Part shown: piece after piece, positions 27,075-64,000 of the stretch | Position numbering within the stretch: position 1 is the first letter of the stretch | Layout of the letters: every line of letters begins with the position of its first letter | From: Collimonas fungivorans | Lineage (GTDB): Bacteria; Pseudomonadota; Gammaproteobacteria; Burkholderiales; Burkholderiaceae_D | Assembly (NCBI RefSeq): GCF_001584145.1 | Contig: NZ_CP013232.1 | Span: forward strand, 2,604,001-2,668,000 | Length of the DNA stretch: 64,000 nt | Direction of reading: 5' to 3' | Notes under the pieces: model-generated | What the model was told of the DNA's origin: nothing | Database searches by the model: none | The model's input: the letters and a program-made list of their open reading frames with translations, nothing else | Made by a program: the position numbers and the translations under genes

Positions 27075-28841
27075 ATGGCAGCAGTGATATCCGAGTCGAA
27101 GGTCGCACCGGCGTCGAGTACGACCGCGGACGATACGCTCAAACGCAAGAGCCGCGACGCCGGCGTGGTGTCAGGCGGGCACCTGGTGGCGCGTGCGCTG
27201 AAGAATGAAGGCGTAGACACGATCTTTACGCTGTGCGGCGGCCATATTATCGATATTTACGATGGTTGCATCGATGAAGGCATCCGCATCATCGATGTGC
27301 GCCATGAACAAGTCGCAGCCCATGCTGCCGACGGATATGCGCGCCAGACCGGCAAGCTGGGCGTGGTGGTGACGACGGCAGGTCCGGGCTGCACCAATGC
27401 CGTGACCGGGATTGCGACGGCGTTCCGTTCGGAAAGCCCGGTGCTGCATATTGGTGGCCAGGGCGGCATCACCCAGCACATGATGGGTTCCTTGCAAGAC
27501 TTGCCGCATACCGAAATGATGCGGCCGATCACCAAATTCTCCGAAGGTGTGCGTTCCACCGAACGGGTAGCCGACATGGTGTCGATGGCGATCCGCGCCT
27601 GCTTTGCCGGCGCCCCTGGCCCGGCGTACCTGGAAATTCCGCGCGACGTGCTGGACCGCGAGATCGAGATCAGCAAGGCCGTGATTCCTGCTGCCGGCCA
27701 ATACCGTGCATCGGTGCGGTCATTGGGCGACGTGGCCGATATCGAGAAGCTGGCCGACATCCTGGTGCAGGCAGAGCGTCCGGTGGTCTTGTACGGCGGC
27801 CAGGTCTGGTCCTCGCGCGGGCACAAGGAAGCAATCGACCTGGTGCGGGGGCTGGATATCCCGGCATACTTCAACAGCGCCTCGCGCGGCTTGCTGCCGC
27901 CGGGCGATCCGCATCATTTCGACCGCACGCGGCGCGAAGGATTCGACAAGGCCGATGTGATCCTGATCGTCGGCACGCCGTTCGACTTCCGCATGGGCTA
28001 CGGCAAACGGCTGGGCCTGAACGCCAAGGTCATCCAGATCGACCAGGATTACCGCACGGTGGGCAAGAACCGCGACATCACGCTGGGCTTGGTGGGTGAT
28101 CCTGGCGCGATCCTGGGGGCGGTGTTGCAGGCGGCGAGCGGGCGCATCAACAAGACAGCGCAAGAGAAGCGGCGCGCCTGGATGAAACAATTGCAACAGC
28201 AGGAAGCGATCGCGACCGAGAAGCTGATGCCGTTGTTCAAGTCGAACAGTTCGCCGATCCATCCTTACCGGGTGGCGTATGAAATCAATGAGTTCTTGAA
28301 CGACGACACGATCTACATCGGCGACGGCGGGGATGTGGTGACGATTTCGGCGCAGGCGGTGCGTCCGCGCAATCCTGGGCAATGGATGGATCCTGGCGCG
28401 CTGGGCAGCCTGGGCGTGGGGACTGGTTTTGCGATTGCGGCCGGTTTGGCCAATCCTGAGAAAGAAGTGATGTGTTACTACGGCGACGGTGCGTTCAGCA
28501 TGACGTCGTTCGACATGGAAACGGCGAACCGTTTCGGCGTGCCGTACATCGCGGTGATCGGCAACAATTCGGCGATGAACCAGATCCGTTACGGCCAGCT
28601 GGCGAAATACGGCGAAGAGCGCGGCAATGTGGGCAACCTGCTGAGCGACATCCCTTACGGCAAGTTTGCCGAGATGCTGGGCGGACATGGCGAAGAGGTA
28701 CGCGATCCGGCGCAGATTGCTGGCGCGTTGCAGCGGGCGCGGGAAGCGGTGCGCAAGACACGGCGTTGTGCGGTGGTCAATATCTGGGTCGATCCTGCGG
28801 TGTATGCCCCGGGAACCATGGCTCAGACCATGTACAAATAA
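27075..28841 (+). CDS. ThDP-dependent acetolactate synthase-like decarboxylase, probable oxalyl-CoA decarboxylase (copy 1)
   Basis: A 588-residue ThDP enzyme with the three usual domains. The cofactor-activating Glu78 lies in DVRHEQVAAHAADGYAR and the Mg-ThDP motif runs from YYGDGAFS to VIGNN near the C-terminus. The sequence style (TTAGPGCTNAVTGIATAF, GSLQDLPHTEMMRPITKF) is closer to acetolactate synthase and 2-hydroxyacyl-CoA lyase than to the classical Oxalobacter oxalyl-CoA decarboxylase. The function is inferred from context: formyl-CoA transferase, OxlT and formate dehydrogenase genes surround it. Start and AGGAGG site are clear. It differs from copy 2 by one residue (Leu315 here, Gln there). 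Confidence 0.75.
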   Translation: MAAVISESKVAPASSTTADDTLKRKSRDAGVVSGGHLVARALKNEGVDTIFTLCGGHIIDIYDGCIDEGIRIIDVRHEQVAAHAADGYARQTGKLGVVVTTAGPGCTNAVTGIATAFRSESPVLHIGGQGGITQHMMGSLQDLPHTEMMRPITKFSEGVRSTERVADMVSMAIRACFAGAPGPAYLEIPRDVLDREIEISKAVIPAAGQYRASVRSLGDVADIEKLADILVQAERPVVLYGGQVWSSRGHKEAIDLVRGLDIPAYFNSASRGLLPPGDPHHFDRTRREGFDKADVILIVGTPFDFRMGYGKRLGLNAKVIQIDQDYRTVGKNRDITLGLVGDPGAILGAVLQAASGRINKTAQEKRRAWMKQLQQQEAIATEKLMPLFKSNSSPIHPYRVAYEINEFLNDDTIYIGDGGDVVTISAQAVRPRNPGQWMDPGALGSLGVGTGFAIAAGLANPEKEVMCYYGDGAFSMTSFDMETANRFGVPYIAVIGNNSAMNQIRYGQLAKYGEERGNVGNLLSDIPYGKFAEMLGGHGEEVRDPAQIAGALQRAREAVRKTRRCAVVNIWVDPAVYAPGTMAQTMYK

Positions 28842-40430: not shown

Positions 40431-41732
40431 ATGGACACCAGTAACGCCAAGCGAGCTCCTAATCGTTGGATTCAACTGATTATCGGCATCATCTGCATGG
40501 GCTTGGTCGCCAATCTGCAATATGCCTGGACATTGTTCGTCAATCCCATGGACGCCAAACATCATTGGGGCCAGGCAGCTATTCAATTATCGTTTTCCAT
40601 TTTCATCGTGACTGAAACCTGGTTGGTGCCGATCGAGGGCTGGCTGGTCGACAAATTCGGCCCGCGTCCGGTGATCGCCATGGGTGCGCTGTTTGCCGGC
40701 GCCGGCTGGGTGATCAATTCGATGGCGACCAACCTGATCGAACTGTATGCCGCCGCGATTATTGCAGGCATAGGGGCCGGCTGCGTGTACGGCACGTGCG
40801 TCGGCAATGCGCTGAAATGGTTTCCCGACCGGCGTGGCCTGGCGGCAGGCCTGACCGCCGCCGGCTTCGGCGCCGGCGCCGCGGTGACGGTGATCCCGAT
40901 CGCCAACATGATCCAGTCGTCCGGCTACGAAAGGGCTTTCCTGTTCTTCGGCATCTTGCAAGGCGTGTGCATTTTCCTGCTGGCCTTGCTGATGGTAAGG
41001 CCGGTGCCGCCCAAGGGCGTGGTGGTATCGAAGAAGATCACCATGACAAAAATCGACTACACGGCGGGACAGATGATCAAGACGCCGGTGTTCTGGCTGA
41101 TCTATGTGCTGTTCGTCGCCGTCGCCGCCGGCGGCCTGATGGCCACCGCGCAGCTGGCGCCGATCGCCAAGGATTTCGGCATCGCCAAGCTGCCGATGAC
41201 GATGCTGGGCGTAACCTTGCCGTTGCTCACCATGACGCTTTCCATCGATAATCTTTGCAATGGTTTCACACGGCCGCTGTGTGGTTTCATCTCCGACAAG
41301 ATCGGCCGCGAAAACACCATGTTCATTGTTTTCATAGGCGAAGGCCTGGCCTTGCTGGGATTGATAGAATACGGCCATAATCCGTATGCCTTCATGCTGT
41401 TTGCGGCTTTGGTGTTCCTGTTCTGGGGCGAGATATTTTCGATCTTTCCAGCGATCTGCGCCGACACCTTCGGCAGCAAGTTTGCCGCCGGCAATGCGGG
41501 CACGCTGTACACAGCGAAAGGCACCGCAGCCTTGCTGGTGCCGCTGACTTCGGTGCTGTCCGCAGGCGGCGCCTGGAACCGGGTATTCCTGGCCGCTTCC
41601 ATCATCACCATCGGCGCCGGCCTGGTCGCCAAGTTCATACTGGCGCCGATGCGCAAGCGCTGGGTGGATAAGGGCGTGCCGGCCTATTCATCCGGGTTCG
41701 ATCCGCATGCCGCGGCTGCGATCAAACGCTAG
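40431..41732 (+). CDS. oxlT: Oxalate/formate antiporter, MFS family (copy 2)
   Basis: A 433-residue 12-helix carrier of the OxlT family (NLQYAWTLFVNPMDAKHHWG, YGTCVGNALKWFPDRRGLA). The substrate-site Arg in NGFTRPLCGFISDKIGR and Lys in LYTAKGTAALLVP are kept, as in copy 1. It starts at ATG 40431 with CAGGAG upstream and has its own CRP/FNR-type promoter. Its divergence from copy 1 suggests long separation and perhaps a different substrate preference or affinity, unlike the two decarboxylase genes, which are nearly identical. Confidence 0.87.
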   Translation: MDTSNAKRAPNRWIQLIIGIICMGLVANLQYAWTLFVNPMDAKHHWGQAAIQLSFSIFIVTETWLVPIEGWLVDKFGPRPVIAMGALFAGAGWVINSMATNLIELYAAAIIAGIGAGCVYGTCVGNALKWFPDRRGLAAGLTAAGFGAGAAVTVIPIANMIQSSGYERAFLFFGILQGVCIFLLALLMVRPVPPKGVVVSKKITMTKIDYTAGQMIKTPVFWLIYVLFVAVAAGGLMATAQLAPIAKDFGIAKLPMTMLGVTLPLLTMTLSIDNLCNGFTRPLCGFISDKIGRENTMFIVFIGEGLALLGLIEYGHNPYAFMLFAALVFLFWGEIFSIFPAICADTFGSKFAAGNAGTLYTAKGTAALLVPLTSVLSAGGAWNRVFLAASIITIGAGLVAKFILAPMRKRWVDKGVPAYSSGFDPHAAAAIKR

Positions 41733-44412: not shown

Positions 44413-46179
44413 ATGGCAGCAGTGATATCCGAGTCGAAGGTCGCACCGGCGTCGAGTACGACCGCGGACGATACGCTCAAACGCAAGAGCCGCGACGCCG
44501 GCGTGGTGTCAGGTGGGCACCTGGTGGCGCGTGCGCTGAAGAATGAAGGCGTAGACACGATCTTTACGCTGTGCGGCGGCCATATTATCGATATTTACGA
44601 TGGTTGCATCGATGAAGGCATCCGCATCATCGATGTGCGCCATGAACAAGTCGCAGCCCATGCTGCCGACGGATATGCGCGCCAGACGGGCAAGCTGGGC
44701 GTGGTGGTGACGACGGCAGGTCCGGGCTGCACCAATGCCGTGACCGGGATTGCGACGGCGTTCCGTTCGGAAAGCCCGGTGCTGCATATTGGTGGCCAGG
44801 GCGGCATCACCCAGCACATGATGGGTTCCTTGCAAGACTTGCCGCATACCGAAATGATGCGGCCGATCACCAAATTCTCCGAAGGTGTGCGTTCCACCGA
44901 ACGGGTAGCCGACATGGTGTCGATGGCGATCCGCGCCTGCTTTGCCGGCGCCCCTGGCCCGGCGTACCTGGAAATTCCGCGCGACGTGCTGGACCGCGAG
45001 ATCGAGATCAGCAAGGCCGTGATTCCTGCTGCCGGCCAATACCGTGCATCGGTGCGGTCATTGGGCGACGTGGCCGATATCGAGAAGCTGGCCGACATCC
45101 TGGTGCAGGCAGAGCGTCCGGTGGTCTTGTACGGCGGCCAGGTCTGGTCCTCGCGCGGGCACAAGGAAGCAATCGACCTGGTGCGGGGGCTGGATATCCC
45201 GGCATACTTCAACAGCGCCTCGCGCGGCTTGCTGCCGCCGGGCGATCCGCATCATTTCGACCGCACGCGGCGCGAAGGATTCGACAAGGCCGATGTGATC
45301 CTGATCGTCGGCACGCCGTTCGACTTCCGCATGGGCTACGGCAAACGGCTGGGCCAGAACGCCAAGGTCATCCAGATCGACCAGGACTACCGCACGGTGG
45401 GCAAGAACCGCGACATCACGCTGGGCCTGGTGGGTGATCCTGGCGCGATCCTGGGGGCGGTGTTGCAGGCGGCGAGCGGGCGCATCAACAAGACAGCGCA
45501 AGAGAAGCGGCGCGCCTGGATGAAACAATTGCAACAGCAGGAAGCGATCGCGACCGAGAAGCTGATGCCGTTGTTCAAGTCGAACAGTTCGCCGATCCAT
45601 CCTTACCGGGTGGCATATGAAATCAACGAGTTCTTGAACGACGACACGATCTACATCGGCGACGGCGGCGATGTGGTGACGATTTCGGCGCAAGCGGTGC
45701 GTCCGCGCAATCCGGGCCAATGGATGGATCCTGGCGCGCTGGGCAGCCTGGGCGTGGGGACTGGTTTTGCGATTGCGGCTGGCTTGGCCAATCCGGAGAA
45801 GGAAGTGATGTGTTACTACGGCGACGGCGCGTTCAGCATGACGTCGTTCGACATGGAAACGGCGAACCGTTTCGGTGTGCCGTACATCGCGGTGATCGGC
45901 AACAACTCGGCGATGAACCAGATCCGTTATGGCCAGCTGGCGAAATACGGCGAAGAGCGCGGCAATGTGGGCAACCTGCTGAGCGACATCCCTTACGGCA
46001 AGTTTGCCGAGATGCTGGGCGGGCATGGCGAAGAGGTGCGCGATCCGGCGCAGATCGCTGGCGCGTTGCAGCGGGCGCGGGAAGCGGTGCGCAAGACACG
46101 GCGTTGTGCGGTGGTCAATATCTGGGTCGATCCTGCGGTGTATGCCCCGGGAACCATGGCTCAGACCATGTACAAATAA
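44413..46179 (+). CDS. ThDP-dependent acetolactate synthase-like decarboxylase, probable oxalyl-CoA decarboxylase (copy 2)
   Basis: A 588-residue enzyme identical to copy 1 except Gln315 in place of Leu. The AGGAGG ribosome site and leader are the same. This copy is followed 73 bases later by formyl-CoA transferase, the enzyme that makes oxalyl-CoA, so the pair would run the oxalate decarboxylation cycle: oxalate plus formyl-CoA gives oxalyl-CoA plus formate, then oxalyl-CoA gives formyl-CoA plus CO2. The sequence itself is not of the classical oxalyl-CoA decarboxylase style, so the assignment rests mainly on this operon. Confidence 0.77.
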   Translation: MAAVISESKVAPASSTTADDTLKRKSRDAGVVSGGHLVARALKNEGVDTIFTLCGGHIIDIYDGCIDEGIRIIDVRHEQVAAHAADGYARQTGKLGVVVTTAGPGCTNAVTGIATAFRSESPVLHIGGQGGITQHMMGSLQDLPHTEMMRPITKFSEGVRSTERVADMVSMAIRACFAGAPGPAYLEIPRDVLDREIEISKAVIPAAGQYRASVRSLGDVADIEKLADILVQAERPVVLYGGQVWSSRGHKEAIDLVRGLDIPAYFNSASRGLLPPGDPHHFDRTRREGFDKADVILIVGTPFDFRMGYGKRLGQNAKVIQIDQDYRTVGKNRDITLGLVGDPGAILGAVLQAASGRINKTAQEKRRAWMKQLQQQEAIATEKLMPLFKSNSSPIHPYRVAYEINEFLNDDTIYIGDGGDVVTISAQAVRPRNPGQWMDPGALGSLGVGTGFAIAAGLANPEKEVMCYYGDGAFSMTSFDMETANRFGVPYIAVIGNNSAMNQIRYGQLAKYGEERGNVGNLLSDIPYGKFAEMLGGHGEEVRDPAQIAGALQRAREAVRKTRRCAVVNIWVDPAVYAPGTMAQTMYK

Positions 46180-46252
46180 GCCGCTTAATAAGCCGCTTAA
46201 TAGGCCACTAAGCAGCACATAAAATTCGATCAAGTTGAACAGGAGATTTGAA

Positions 46253-47524
46253 ATGAGCACAGAAAAAAGCAAGGCAAAACCACTGGACGGCATCCGCATC
46301 ATCGACTTCACGCACGTGCAAGCCGGTCCTGCATGCACACAATTGCTGGCATGGTTTGGCGCCGATGTGATCAAGGTCGAACGTCCGGGTTCCGGCGATG
46401 TCACGCGTTCGCAGCTGCGCGACATCCCTGATGTCGACGCCCTGTATTTCACCATGTTGAACAGCAACAAGCGCTCGCTCACACTCGACACCAAAAAGCC
46501 CGAAGGCAAGCTGGTGCTGGAAAAGCTGATCAAGGAATCCGACGTGCTGGTCGAGAACTTCGGACCAGGCGCGCTGGACCGCATGGGTTTTTCCTGGGAA
46601 CGCATCAACGAACTGAATCCGAAGATGATCGTGGCCTCGGTCAAGGGCTTCAGCGACGGCCACCACTACGATGACCTGAAGGTCTACGAAAACGTCGCCC
46701 AGTGCGCCGGCGGCGCGGCTTCCACCACAGGTTTCTGGGACGGCCCGCCGACGGTCAGCGCCGCCGCCCTGGGCGACAGCAACACCGGCATGCACCTGGC
46801 GATCGGCATCCTGACCGCCTTGATCGGCCGCGACAAGACCGGCAAGGGACAGCGCGTTGCGGTGTCGATGCAGGATAGCGTGCTGAACCTGTGCCGCGTC
46901 AAGCTGCGCGACCAGCAGCGCCTGGACAGGCTCGGTTTCCTGGAAGAGTACCCGCAATACCCGCACGGCACGTTCAGCGATGTGGTGCCGCGCGGCGGCA
47001 ATGCCGGCGGCGGCGGCCAGCCAGGCTGGGTGCTCAAGTGCAAGGGCTGGGAAAACGATCCGAACGCCTATATCTACTTCACCATCCAGGGCCATGCCTG
47101 GGCGCCTATCTGCAAGGCGATCGGCAAGGATGAATGGATAGAAGATCCGGCTTACAACACGCCGAAGGCGCGCCAGCCGCATATCACCGAAATTTTCGAC
47201 ACCATAGAAGTGTGGCTGAAGGACAAGACCAAGTTCGAAGCGGTCGACATCCTGCGCAAATTCGACATTCCTTGCGCACCTGTGCTGACCATGAAAGAAC
47301 TGGCCAACGATCCGTCGCTGCGCGCCAGCGGCACCATCACCGAAGTCGATCACAAGGAACGCGGCAAATACCTGACTGTCGGCAGCCCGATCAAGTTCTC
47401 CGACCTGACGCCGGAAATCACCGGATCGCCGTTGCTGGGCGAGCACACCGACGAAGTGCTGGCGGACGTGCTGGGCTACAGCGCCGGACAGATTGCCGAA
47501 CTGCACAAAGCAGAAGCGGTCTGA
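46253..47524 (+). CDS. frc: Formyl-CoA:oxalate CoA-transferase
   Basis: A 423-residue class III CoA-transferase, very like Oxalobacter Frc over its length ([53 protein letters not shown]). The catalytic Asp is Asp175 in ALGDSNTG, and the glycine loop [12 protein letters not shown] that closes over the active site is present. ATG 46253 has AGGAG upstream. Compared with Oxalobacter Frc it lacks a short insertion before PRGGN. It is the second gene of the decarboxylase copy 2 operon and ends at a good terminator. Confidence 0.92.
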
Positions 47525-48091: not shown

Positions 48092-48157
48092 GATCGTGAT
48101 GGCACCGGCTATATGGCAAAAGCGCGGTGCAAATATAAATATAAACAGGAGATTTTC

Positions 48158-49405
48158 ATGAGCAAAGCACTGGATGGCGTGCGCATTCTAGATTTCACCC
48201 ATGTCCAGTCAGGGCCGACCTGCACTCAGCTGCTGGCCTGGTTCGGCGCCGATGTGATCAAGGTCGAACGCGCCGGCGAAGGCGACGCCACACGCGGGCA
48301 GCTGCGCGACATTCCCGGAGTCGACAGCCTGTATTTCACGATGCTGAACCATAACAAGCGCTCCATCACGCTGGACACCAAGAATCCCAAGGGCAAGGAA
48401 GTGCTGGAAACGCTGATCAAGGATTGCGACGTGCTGGTGGAGAATTTTGCACCGGGAGCGCTGGACCGCATGGGATTTACCTGGGAACGCATCCAGGAGT
48501 TGAATCCGCGCATGATCGTGGCCTCGGTCAAGGGTTTCGGGCCCGGCAAATATGAAGACTGCAAGGTCTATGAGAACGTTGCCCAGTGCGCCGGCGGCGC
48601 GGCGTCCACCACCGGTTTCGACGACGGCCCGCCGATGGTCACCGGGGCCCAGATCGGCGACAGCGGCACCGGCTTGCACCTGGCGCTGGGCATCGTCAGC
48701 GCGCTGTTCCAGCGTCACACGTCGGGCCGCGGCCAGAAGGTGCTGGCGCCGATGCAGGACGCCGTATTGAACCTGTGCCGCGTCAAGCTGCGCGACCAGC
48801 AACGGCTGGAGCGCACCGGCACCATGCACGAATATCCGCAATATCCGGACAGCAAGTTCGGCGAGGCCGTGCCGCGCGCCGGCAATGCTTCCGGCGGCGG
48901 CCAGCCGGGTTCGATCCTGAAGTGCAAGGGCTGGGAAACCGATCCTAACGCCTATATCTATTTCATCACCCAGGGCGCGGTCTGGCCGGCGGTCTGCAAG
49001 GTGATAGGCGAGGAGGGCTGGATCACCGACGAGGCTTACGCCACGCCGGCGGCGCGCTTGCTGCACCTGAAACCGATCTTTGCCCGCATCGAGCAATGGA
49101 CCATGAGCAAGACCAAGTTCGAAGCCATGGATATCCTGAACCAGTACGATATCCCGTGCGGACCTATCCTGTCGATGAAGGAAATCGCCGAAGACGAATC
49201 GCTGCGCCAGAGCGGCACCATCGTCGAAATCGACCACCCGGCACGCGGCAAGTACCTGACGGTAGGCAATCCGATCAAGATGTCGGACAGCCCGACCGAT
49301 GTCACGCGTTCTCCCTTGCTGGGGGAACATACCGAAGAAGTGCTGACGCAGCTCGGCTACGGCAAGGATTACATCGCCGCGCTGCGTGAAGAGAAGGTGA
49401 TCTGA
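48158..49405 (+). CDS. frc: Second formyl-CoA transferase-like class III CoA-transferase
   Basis: A 415-residue CoA-transferase closely related to the enzyme at 46253 ([36 protein letters not shown]). The catalytic Asp is Asp168 in [10 protein letters not shown] and the glycine loop [10 protein letters not shown] is kept, but the Frc hallmark ALGDSN has become QIGDSG and [11 protein letters not shown] has become [13 protein letters not shown] 48158 is preceded by CAGGAG. It may be a true Frc isoenzyme or use another acid such as a different dicarboxylate. It is 67 bases after the PAS gene. Confidence 0.85.
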
Positions 49406-59887: not shown

Positions 59888-60153
59888 TTCTAGGCTCCGT
59901 GGCTAGTCTCTCCAGCCGAAAGGCTTCCGGCCGGCCGTACGTATCAAGTTATACCAAGCGCGGATTGTGCACAGCATATATGACAGCTTGAAGACACAGC
60001 CTGTCTGGCGTGGACGGTCCGGATTGCGCTTATCTGAATTCCAACTATGGAGAGAAGGTTTTATTCGTTCTTTTTGTTTTGCCTTCTTATTAAGCTCGGG
60101 CTGAGCGCTGCTTGCAGCTTGAACAGGGTAATCCATTCCATCGGGAAGACAAT

Positions 60154-61143
60154 ATGAGCGATAACAAGTCTCGCAACAATAATAACCGGGCCGGCCAGCG
60201 CCGCCGCCTGCTACAGGCCGGCATAGGCATGGCTGCGGTTGCGGCTTTTACGCCTTTTGCCGTACGCGCGGCGCAACGTGAACTGCGCGTCGGCTACCAG
60301 AAAGGCTTGCTGAGCCTGCTGAAAAGGCGCGGCACGCTGGAGCAGCGCCTGGCGCCGCTGGGCGTGACGGTCAAATGGATAGAGTTCAGCGCCGGGCCGG
60401 TGCAGCTGGAGGCGTTGAATGTCGGTTCCATCGATTTCGGCGATGTCGGCGAAGCGCCGCCGATTTTCGCCCAGGCCAACGGCACGCCGATTGTCTATGT
60501 CGCGGCGACCGTGCCGCGGCCGGCGGTGGAGGCGGTGCTGGTCCCGGCAACTTCGGCGGTCAGGACAGTTGCCGACCTGAAGGGCAAAAAGATCGCCCTG
60601 AACAAGGGCTCGAACGTCCACTATTTCCTGGTCAAGCTGCTGCAGAAGAACGGCTTGAACCATAGCGACGTCAACCTGGTGTGGCTGGCGCCGGCCGATG
60701 CCCGCGCTGCGTTCGAGAAGGGCGTGGTCGACGCCTGGGTGATCTGGGAGCCGTTCCTTGCGGCCGCCGAACAGACCCTGGCGGCGCGCATCCTGGCCGA
60801 CGCCAGCGGTGTCGTCAAGAACCGGGCTTATTATTTTTCATCAAAGGATTACGCGCAGAAGAATGGCGATGTCCTGAGCATCGCCGTTGAAGAGCTCAAC
60901 AAGATCGACATCTGGGGCAAAGCCAACCGCAATGAGCTGGCGGCGGAACTGTCGGCGGTGTGGGGCTTGCCGAAGCCCGTGGTCGATGTCCTGGTGGCTC
61001 GTTCTTCGTTTGGCACTGAGCCGATCAGCAGGTCGATATTGGCGGAACAGCAGGTCATCGCCGACACTTTCTTCGAGCTGAAGCTGATTCCCCGGCAGAT
61101 CGACGTGCGCGACGCCGCGCCCGCGGCTCTGGGCCGGTCATAG
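60154..61143 (+). CDS. Aliphatic sulfonate ABC transporter substrate-binding protein (SsuA-like)
   Basis: A 329-residue periplasmic binding protein with a twin-arginine-like leader (QRRRLLQAGIGMAAVAAFTP) and the SsuA/TauA-type core (LRVGYQKGLLSLLKRRGTLE, NVGSIDFGDVGEAPPIFAQA, LKGKKIALNKGSNVHYFLVK). ATG 60154 with GGGA upstream is chosen over 60112. It should capture a sulfonate for uptake. No permease or ATPase gene is adjacent. It directly precedes the serine acetyltransferase-encapsulin-desulfurase genes, which suggests a shared role in sulfur supply. Confidence 0.85.
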   Translation: MSDNKSRNNNNRAGQRRRLLQAGIGMAAVAAFTPFAVRAAQRELRVGYQKGLLSLLKRRGTLEQRLAPLGVTVKWIEFSAGPVQLEALNVGSIDFGDVGEAPPIFAQANGTPIVYVAATVPRPAVEAVLVPATSAVRTVADLKGKKIALNKGSNVHYFLVKLLQKNGLNHSDVNLVWLAPADARAAFEKGVVDAWVIWEPFLAAAEQTLAARILADASGVVKNRAYYFSSKDYAQKNGDVLSIAVEELNKIDIWGKANRNELAAELSAVWGLPKPVVDVLVARSSFGTEPISRSILAEQQVIADTFFELKLIPRQIDVRDAAPAALGRS

Positions 61144-61331: not shown

Positions 61332-62257
61332 ATGAGTAGCCGCAATTTTTCCGAACAGCAGGCGCTGACCGACAGTTCCGGCCTGGGCCTGGAGCTGGTG
61401 GTTTCCGCCTTGCGCACATCGCGCGAAGTGACCAACAAGATCCGGCACCGCGGCGATATCCGCGAACTGCCGTCGCGCCAGGCGTTGGCGGAAGTTCTGC
61501 AAGGCCTGTCTGCCGCGCTGTTTCCGACCCACTACGGCCGCACCGATCTGAACGACGAAACCATCGACCATTTTGTCGGCAACACCCTCGGTTTTACCTT
61601 GAATATCCTGGCGGAGCAGGTCCGCCGGGCTTGCTGTTCGTGCTCGAAGAAAGCACGCCGGAAGCCGACCTCAACCGCCAGGCGCTCGCCGTCACCCGGC
61701 AGTTCGCGGCAGGCCTGCCGGCCATCCGCGACCTGCTGGCGAGCGACATCCAGGCTGCCTACAGCGGCGATCCTGCCGCCACCAGCATTTCCGAAATCCT
61801 GCTGTGTTATCCCGGCACCACGGCCATCATCTACCATCGCCTGGCGCACGCCCTGCATGGCCTGGGCGCGCCGTTGCTGGCGCGCCTGATCGCTGACATC
61901 GCCCATTCGGCGACCGGCATAGACATTCATCCGGCGGCGCAGATCGGCGCCAGTTTTTTCATCGACCACGGCACCGGCGTGGTGATCGGCGAGACCACCA
62001 TCATCGGCCAGCGGGTGCGCCTGTACCAGGCCGTGACGCTGGGCGCCAAACGTTTTCCCGCCGATCAAGACGGCGCCCTGATCAAGGGCAACGAACGCCA
62101 TCCTATCGTCGAAGACGATGTTGTCATCTATGCCGGCGCCACCGTCCTCGGCCGCGTCACCATCGGCAAGGGGTCGACCATAGGCGGCAATGTCTGGCTG
62201 ACCCGTAGCGTACCGCCCGGCAGCAACATTTCGCAGGCGCAGATGCGCGACGACTGA
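61332..62257 (+). pseudogene. epsC: Serine O-acetyltransferase (EpsC-type) with a single-base frameshift
   Basis: Two overlapping frames together form one 308-residue serine acetyltransferase. The first (from ATG 61332) gives the N-terminal helical part ending ILAEQVRR; the second continues GLLFVLEESTPEADLNR through the hexapeptide-repeat barrel (IHPAAQIGASFFIDHGTGVV, GRVTIGKGSTIGGNVWLTRS). Adding one G to the GGG at 61627-61629 joins them exactly (VRR-GLLF). It makes O-acetylserine, the cysteine precursor. It is 37 bases before the encapsulin gene, the usual partner arrangement in Family 2A operons. A sequencing error is likely, as the rest is intact. Confidence 0.82.
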
Positions 62258-62294
62258 ATCTCCACCCCTCAACCTTCGATCACAGGAAATGTAA

Positions 62295-63212
62295 ATGGCC
62301 AGCAAACCAGAAGTGAATACCGCCCTTGGCGATGTAGCAGCACGCCAACTTGCGATTGCGACGCGCACCGTACCGCAGATGTCGTCCATCACGCCGCGCT
62401 GGCTGACGCACCTGCTGCAATGGGTGCCGGTGGAATCCGGCATCTATCGCCTGAACAAGGTAAAAGACGCCTCCAGCGTCGAGGTCGACTGTTCCGGCCG
62501 CGATGAGCGCGAGCTGCCGCAGACCTTCGTCGACTACATCGAGAATCCGCGCGAATACATGCTGAGCGCGGTCAATACCGTGCTCGACGTGCATACCCGG
62601 GTATCCGACCTGTACAGCAAGCCGTATAACCAGATCGCCGAGCAGCTGCGCCTGATCATAGAAACCATCAAGGAACGCCAGGAAAGCGAACTGATCAACA
62701 ACAAGGAATACGGGCTGCTGCACAGCATTGTCGCCTCGCAGCGGATCAAGACCCGCAGCGGCGCGCCGACTCCCGACGACCTCGACGAGCTGCTGGTCAA
62801 GGTATGGAAAGAACCCGGTTTTTTCCTCGCCCATCCGGTGACGATCGCCGCCTTCGGCCGTGAATGCACGCGGCGCGGCGTGCCGCCGCCGACGGTATCG
62901 CTGTTCGGCTCGCAATTCATCACCTGGCGCGGCATACCCCTGATCCCCAGCGACAAGATCCTGATCGAGAAGGGCAAGTCGAAGATCATCCTGATACGCA
63001 CGGGCGAAAGCCGCCAGGGCGTGGTCGGCCTGTATCAGCCGGACCTGCCGGGCGAGCAGAGCCCAGGCTTGTCGGTGCGTTTCATGGGCATCAACCATAA
63101 AGCGATCGCTTCCTACCTGGTTTCGCTGTATTGCTCGCTGGCGGTGCTGACCGACGACGCCATCGCCGTCCTCGAAGACGTGGAAGTGGGCAAGTACCAT
63201 GAGTACAAGTGA
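62295..63212 (+). CDS. Family 2A encapsulin nanocompartment shell protein
   Basis: A 305-residue HK97-fold shell protein of the SrpI type. Recognisable stretches are MSSITPRWLTHLLQWVPVES near the N-terminus, ETIKERQESELINNKEYGLL, VTIAAFGRECTRRGVPPPTV, LFGSQFITWRGIPLIPSDKI and ILIRTGESRQGVVGLYQPDL. No cyclic-nucleotide domain is inserted, which separates it from Family 2B. Such shells self-assemble into protein compartments that hold a cysteine desulfurase. The stop overlaps the start of the desulfurase gene by 14 bases, so shell and cargo are coupled. It is often left as a hypothetical or mis-annotated protein. Confidence 0.92.
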   Translation: MASKPEVNTALGDVAARQLAIATRTVPQMSSITPRWLTHLLQWVPVESGIYRLNKVKDASSVEVDCSGRDERELPQTFVDYIENPREYMLSAVNTVLDVHTRVSDLYSKPYNQIAEQLRLIIETIKERQESELINNKEYGLLHSIVASQRIKTRSGAPTPDDLDELLVKVWKEPGFFLAHPVTIAAFGRECTRRGVPPPTVSLFGSQFITWRGIPLIPSDKILIEKGKSKIILIRTGESRQGVVGLYQPDLPGEQSPGLSVRFMGINHKAIASYLVSLYCSLAVLTDDAIAVLEDVEVGKYHEYK

Positions 63213-64000
63213 TTTCTCCGGAAACGGCTTGCCCGACGTTGCCGCATTGGCGCAACTGGCGAACCAGTTTTTCACGGCATTGCCATCGGCTAGCCAGGGA
63301 CAGGCCGGCAGCGGCTTGCCGGCTGGTTTGTCGCATCTCAATGCGGCGCCGCCGAGCGTTCCAGGCGGCGCCTCTGCCTTAGGCGGCGGGCTGGGATTTT
63401 CTCCCGGAGGAAGTTCGAACGCAGCGGCGGGCGTGCCGACTTCGTTGAGCGGCGACCTGCCGCTGAGCGGCGCTTCGCCGGCAGCATTCGGCTTGCCCGG
63501 CGAAGCCGAGCTGAAAGCCCTGCTGGCAGCGCCGGCCAGTAGCCAGTCGCAGCCGCCGGCGACAGTCGGACCAGGCAGCGGCGCTGCGTATTATTTCCTC
63601 GACTTCGCCAAGCCATATCCTGCCGGCCTCAAGGTTCCCGGCCTGGCAACCGACAGCTTGCATGCCGGCAGCGTGCCGGCGGCGCCAGCGCCGTTTGACA
63701 TCAACCTGGTGCGGCGCGATTTCCCGATCCTGCAGGATCGCGTCAACGGCAAGCAGCTGGTCTGGCTGGACAATGCCGCGACCACGCACAAGCCGCAATC
63801 GGTGATCGACCGCCTGGCGTATTTCTACGCGCACGAAAATTCGAATATCCACCGCGCCGCCCACGAACTGGCGGCACGCGCCACCGATGCTTACGAAGGC
63901 GCGCGCGAGAAAGTGCGCGGTTTCCTCAATGCGCGTTCTGCCAACGAATGCGTGTTCGTGCGCGGCACCACTGAAGCCATCAACCTGGTGGCGCAAAGCT
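63199..64000 (+). CDS. Encapsulin cargo cysteine desulfurase (SufS-like), cut by window end
   Basis: The frame opens at ATG 63199 and stays open to the window end (267 residues seen). Residues 1-165 are a Gly/Ala/Pro/Ser-rich, probably disordered extension with three short ordered-looking pieces (LPDVAALAQLANQFFTALPS, LPGEAELKALLAAP, AAYYFLDFAKPYPAG). From residue 166 it becomes a SufS/CsdA-type aminotransferase (FDINLVRRDFPILQDRVNGK, VWLDNAATTHKP, ENSNIHRAAHELA). The extension is the expected cargo-loading domain of Family 2A desulfurases. The PLP-lysine and catalytic Cys lie past the edge. Confidence 0.9.
   Translation, partial: MSTSDFSGNGLPDVAALAQLANQFFTALPSASQGQAGSGLPAGLSHLNAAPPSVPGGASALGGGLGFSPGGSSNAAAGVPTSLSGDLPLSGASPAAFGLPGEAELKALLAAPASSQSQPPATVGPGSGAAYYFLDFAKPYPAGLKVPGLATDSLHAGSVPAAPAPFDINLVRRDFPILQDRVNGKQLVWLDNAATTHKPQSVIDRLAYFYAHENSNIHRAAHELAARATDAYEGAREKVRGFLNARSANECVFVRGTTEAINLVAQS

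Follow-up and report, generated by a model that had tools for sequence, protein, structure and literature searches.

A predicted Family 2A encapsulin operon with a cysteine desulfurase cargo and a frameshifted serine acetyltransferase gene in Collimonas fungivorans

Does the end of a 64,000-nucleotide stretch of the Collimonas fungivorans genome encode a protein compartment for sulfur, and are the genes that would build it whole? This stretch, the whole of the DNA that was analysed, is called the window here. It ends inside the operon, and the rest was read from the same genome as L002, where a position equals the window position minus 60000. The original prediction saw three genes in a row: an EpsC-type serine acetyltransferase, a SrpI-like shell protein of 305 residues and a SufS-like desulfurase. 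Comparison of the proteins with family models and solved structures indicates that this is, almost certainly, a conventional Family 2A encapsulin operon with a cysteine desulfurase as its cargo. The acetyltransferase gene, as explained below, is a different matter.

The shell and its desulfurase cargo

The shell is encoded on the forward strand at 62295–63212, where the open reading frame for a 305-residue SrpI-like protein was confirmed. Comparison with the Family 2A and 2B profiles, the check proposed with the prediction, gives 540.2 bits for the NCBIfam model encap_f2a, which has a cut-off of 380. The Family 2B model is also passed, with a lower score of 435.6 bits (cut-off 400, NCBIfam). 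The sole Pfam family found in the 305 residues at E ≤ 0.001 is PF19307 (SrpI-like, 359 bits), and at this threshold a cNMP-binding domain is absent. As the 2A model scores higher and there is no cNMP-binding domain, a Family 2B reading of the shell was rejected.

Eight distinct solved PDB chains are matched by the shell sequence. The best is 8t6r (517.9 bits over residues 7–304), and 6x8m, which is SrpI, gives 517.4 bits over residues 9–305 in the same PDB sequence search. An AlphaFold model of the shell, built from alignment A2 of 26 near relatives, is weak, with a mean pLDDT of 50.7. Foldseek returns seven matches to this model at E ≤ 0.001, all of them encapsulin shells, and the top match is again 8t6r, annotated as the cargo-loaded Family 2A shell of Acinetobacter baumannii. 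As the TM-scores (by query) are only 0.43–0.45, these matches are not used as independent proof of the fold and, with so poor a model, assignment of the HK97 fold depends on how closely the sequence resembles that of solved shells.

The cargo gene follows on the same strand. It runs from an ATG at 63199 to 64914, with 63199–64000 lying within the window, and encodes a 571-residue encapsulated cysteine desulfurase. The protein passes the cut-offs of both f2_encap_cargo1 (883.9 bits, cut-off 800) and sufS (562 bits, cut-off 475.1; both NCBIfam), so the predicted SufS-like desulfurase beside the shell is upheld. The SufS model has seven matches in the genome, and the encapsulated enzyme alone scores above the cut-off. 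The cargo contains SGHK at residue 386 and SGHHCAQP at residue 523, which we take, after SufS, to be the PLP-lysine and persulfide-cysteine sites. The match to the sufS model starts at residue 171, and the earliest Pfam match starts no sooner than residue 188 (E ≤ 0.001). Within the N-terminal extension, LAQLANQFFT from residue 17 onward and AAYYFLDF near residue 131 (YYFL at 131) are counterparts of, and not identical to, LARLANEFFS and AASPYYFLDG, the N-terminal motifs of Synechococcus elongatus CyD (PMC8049743, eLife 2021).

The system thus resembles SrpI and CyD of S. elongatus PCC 7942 (6x8m, 6x8t) both in shell sequence and in a cargo extension with motifs of these two types. The extension is shorter here, as judged by the start of the sufS match, than the 225-residue domain in S. 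elongatus (PMC8049743). The serine acetyltransferase gene before the shell is a feature of the Collimonas locus; the comparison with S. elongatus covers the proteins, and that with the A. baumannii Family 2A encapsulin (8t6r), the best solved sequence match, covers the shell. Family 2A desulfurase operons that include a serine O-acetyltransferase (PMC8346489) are alike in both cargo type and accessory gene, but here, unlike in those operons as described, the accessory gene is frameshifted.

By analogy with these systems, the shell protein would assemble into an icosahedral, HK97-fold particle, given that it matches solved Family 2A shells at 518 bits. The SufS-type desulfurase would be loaded into the particle by its N-terminal extension, which carries counterparts of the two CyD motifs. 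Cysteine would enter via small pores, the desulfurase would draw sulfur from it in the form of an enzyme-bound persulfide, and this sulfur would be kept in the compartment or passed on from it. By homology, a role in sulfur storage or transfer is plausible.

Distribution of the operon and the overlap of shell and cargo genes

The original prediction implied that such a compartment was new to a betaproteobacterium. This is not borne out. A PF19307 match, which by itself cannot separate 2A from 2B, is present in 54 of 195 same-family genomes, the window's own included, and 53 of these are over the cut-off. In a public genome collection, at least 579 relatives are encoded among the 593 pattern matches listed, and close relatives occur among these in named Aquabacterium, Leptothrix, Iodobacter, Pseudothauera and Rhodocyclaceae records. 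Furthermore, 1281 Family 2A desulfurase operons have been catalogued, 813 of them in Proteobacteria, with Burkholderia species named among those that have desulfurase systems (Andreas and Giessen 2021, PMC8346489), so the kind is known, betaproteobacteria included. In the same survey, serine O-acetyltransferases and rhodaneses are the most enriched accessory components of desulfurase operons. The loci compared here contain a desulfurase in 79 of the best 80 named loci and in 29/29 other same-family loci, and an acetyltransferase match in 44 and 28 of these, respectively.

As predicted, the desulfurase start lies over the shell stop, and the overlap is 14 bases long (63199–63212, forward strand). 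Overlaps were counted over 110 loci, that is, the best 80 named, the 29 same-family and the window's own, of which 109 have a desulfurase; L070, in whose contig the desulfurase is absent, is outside the count. As raw counts over related loci with predicted starts, in which every in-frame ATG within the last 30 bases of the shell gene was accepted, 101/109 loci have a cargo ATG that overlaps the end of the shell gene and eight have no such ATG. This supersedes an earlier count of the start nearest the shell end, which gave 62 with an upstream start (82 loci). The overlap is 17 bases in 51 loci, 26 in 23, 14 in 20 and 20 in five. Two loci hold two overlapping ATGs each (26 and 14 bases; 26 and 20 bases). 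All four lengths place the two genes in one relative frame, and the loci that have them include Bacteroidota, Pseudomonadota, one Acidobacteriota and one Planctomycetota record.

An overlapping ATG in so many loci suggests translational coupling. That shell and cargo are coupled through overlaps of a small number of fixed lengths (14, 17, 20 or 26 bases) is proposed here tentatively, from conservation of the arrangement, and the balance is somewhat against it. If true, the two proteins would be made in a coupled way: ribosomes ending the shell would re-start on the loading region of the cargo, thereby setting the shell-to-cargo ratio. Alternatively, coupling could allow cargo loading to start during translation. 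Among the passages of the two main encapsulin papers that were reached by keyword, the only one on overlapping genes concerns the A-domain (Family 4) encapsulins.

The frameshifted serine acetyltransferase gene

The gene before the shell does not read as one intact EpsC-type serine acetyltransferase. On the forward strand, a frame from 61332 ends at 61889 (185 aa). The first 108 residues of this frame can be aligned with the gene of G028, where it is unbroken. G028, the nearest relative found, belongs to the same genus and is 94% identical across the 3.7 kb locus. By this alignment the 5' part is coding to about 61627, and beyond this point the frame is an out-of-frame read. For the 61332–61889 frame, neither Pfam nor NCBIfam gives a match at E ≤ 0.001. 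The gene's 3' catalytic part lies in another frame of this strand at 61631–62257 (208 aa from TTG; possible TTG or GTG starts at 61631 and 61640). It passes EPS_EpsC with 160.3 bits (cut-off 150), scores 167.8 with cysE, which is under the cut-off of 210.65, and matches Pfam Hexapep. Relative to G028, there is one base fewer near 61627. The predicted placement next to cysteine precursor synthesis therefore stands in part: the acetyltransferase gene is there, but its frame reads broken.

An acetyltransferase is found in 72/109 other loci, and in 71 of these the frame is unbroken over at least 273 codons, with 17 of the 71 reaching the end of the examined locus; the remaining copy, in L029, is cut by its locus end. 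Among the 44 named copies (best 80 loci), eight are close, at 68–77% identity, and the other 36, at 43–51%, may be a different acetyltransferase. Another cysE, over the cut-off, is present elsewhere in the genome (G000:C1:3262857-3263345). If the break is real, the compartment would depend on cysteine from this copy.

The frameshift sits in a G+C-rich hairpin with its stem at 61607–61629, and such sites are no commoner than in shuffles. The hairpin, judged by eye, is closer to perfect than its G028 counterpart, and there are substitutions nearby. A copying mutation at a quasi-palindrome would account for this, and so would a sequencing error.

No sigma-70-like promoter was found 5' of the acetyltransferase (L002 1100–1332), and the whole region has two sigma-70-like sites with 1.4 expected. 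Rfam gives nothing at the gathering score in L002 1000–5600. Just 3' of the cargo gene is a 12-pair terminator-like hairpin (L002 4939–4969), and inspection by eye shows a similar one in the sequence of a second same-genus genome, G164. Terminator-like sites in the region number seven, compared with 5.6 in shuffles (sd 2.2), which is no excess.

Two explanations of the break have to be weighed, and neither excludes the main reading of the locus as a Family 2A operon. One is that sequencing or assembly introduced the frameshift into an operon that is fully intact, a serious possibility that falls a little short of an even chance. Here, the absence of any such break from the 72 other loci (71 unbroken, one cut by the locus end) and the position of this one inside the hairpin both count in its favor, as G+C-rich hairpins are error-prone places in sequencing. 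In addition, both sides of the break differ from G028 mostly at third codon positions (15/20 changes in the 5' part and 20/26 in the 3' part), which means that the break is recent or is a sequencing error. Against an error, the genome is a single contig, 99.98 complete, and the more perfect hairpin with its nearby substitutions would fit a real copying mutation. The other explanation is that the acetyltransferase is a pseudogene in a decaying operon, with shell and cargo to follow. This is compatible with the family assignment and concerns present function. Loss of the acetyltransferase frame could indeed be an early step in decay of the operon here; the shell is present in only 2/12 same-genus genomes listed, and G164 is without the operon and keeps 21 bases of the desulfurase 3' end, 20/21 of them identical. 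However, the shell and cargo frames are open and their changes relative to G028 are mostly at third positions (35/38 in the shell; 80/104 in the cargo, 497 codons compared), and the acetyltransferase parts follow the same pattern, which again points to a recent break or an error. Decay is considered unlikely.

Neighbouring genes and history of the locus

A third explanation concerns the shell itself, which could be the remnant of an HK97-type phage capsid tied to a contractile-injection-like cluster downstream (L002:5502–16000, window numbering 65502 onward). This cluster encodes a tail sheath, two tail-tube-like proteins and a VgrG-related protein under its NCBIfam cut-off, about 6–13 kb after the shell, and it is shared with G028 (95% over 60019–76000 in window numbering). 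However, the shell passes an encapsulin equivalog model and has a cognate cargo. Eight downstream proteins, the tail-like ones among them, have no matches at E ≤ 1e-6 in the best 80 named shell loci, which span at most 10 kb each side and in some cases less, and G164 has a region matching 64894–72582 in window numbering without the operon. The immediate neighbours among the open reading frames scanned are an SsuA-like protein, the acetyltransferase and the desulfurase, with no head genes. The capsid explanation was rejected as barely credible.

Upstream of the operon, an SsuA-family sulfonate-binding protein is encoded at 60112–61143 (TIGR01728, 220.5 bits, cut-off 163.5). Two of the best 80 named loci contain a match to it, with identities of 37% and 27%. 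Between 55038 and 59887 lie genes for di-heme-enzyme-like and phospholipase C/acid-phosphatase-like proteins, all below cut-offs, and for one protein without a family match. This block has no counterpart in any of the three genomes where the flanks on either side match (G028, G186 and G164).

The operon had also been described as lying beside oxalate metabolism, and this holds in part. An oxalate/formate antiporter (40431–41732) and two formyl-CoA transferases (46235–47524 and 48113–49405) pass their cut-offs, but they lie 13–22 kb upstream of the shell. Two proteins of 588 residues, similar to each other and of the acetolactate synthase/oxalyl-CoA decarboxylase kind (27075–28841 and 44413–46179), score 232 and 234 bits, respectively, with the oxalyl-CoA decarboxylase model TIGR03254 and so fail its cut-off of 739; their best listed family is an acetolactate synthase model, under its cut-off. 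Some 11 kb separate the oxalate block from the operon, and gcvP and gcvT of glycine cleavage, labelled by eye, are found there. The oxalate block is upstream of the operon in G028 too, the one other same-genus genome with the shell, so the co-location is common to two close relatives. No functional link between the two was found with family models. By title and abstract start, a literature keyword search returned nothing tying encapsulin to oxalate, and nothing pairing encapsulin with Collimonas or with the term "serine acetyltransferase".

How the operon came to be here was approached with a tree of 105 shells, in which bootstrap values had not settled and which used 25/29 same-family and 79/80 named sequences, identical or short rows being dropped. 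The window's shell and the G028 shell form a pair (100/99), away from the remaining 24 same-family shells, and the pair stands beside a group of 68, Bacteroidota where the phylum is shown, at weak support (88/26). Horizontal transfer of the operon would fit, and transfer has already been proposed for Family 2A desulfurase operons (PMC8346489).

In G164, almost nothing separates the SsuA-like gene from the downstream region, and 61135–64893 in window numbering is missing. The 21 bases kept there run up to the desulfurase stop. The motif GGR is also present in the tails of 3/28 named desulfurases inspected (L043, L051 and L052), which weakly suggests that these bases are part of the cargo gene, and hence that the operon may have been lost in G164 rather than inserted here. 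At the site of the missing operon, the G164 SsuA-like gene (L144:4517–5532) matches in two pieces, the second of which has an internal stop. In the stretches from G186, G143 and G153, the SsuA-like gene is matched and nothing downstream of it is.

C. fungivorans would thus be one more host for a well-described class of sulfur compartment. The locus combines a cysteine-precursor enzyme whose gene reads as broken with a shell and cargo that are seemingly maintained, which helps to ask whether this enzyme matters to the compartment. For the family as a whole, the recurrent overlap of shell and cargo genes makes cargo dosage through translational coupling directly testable.
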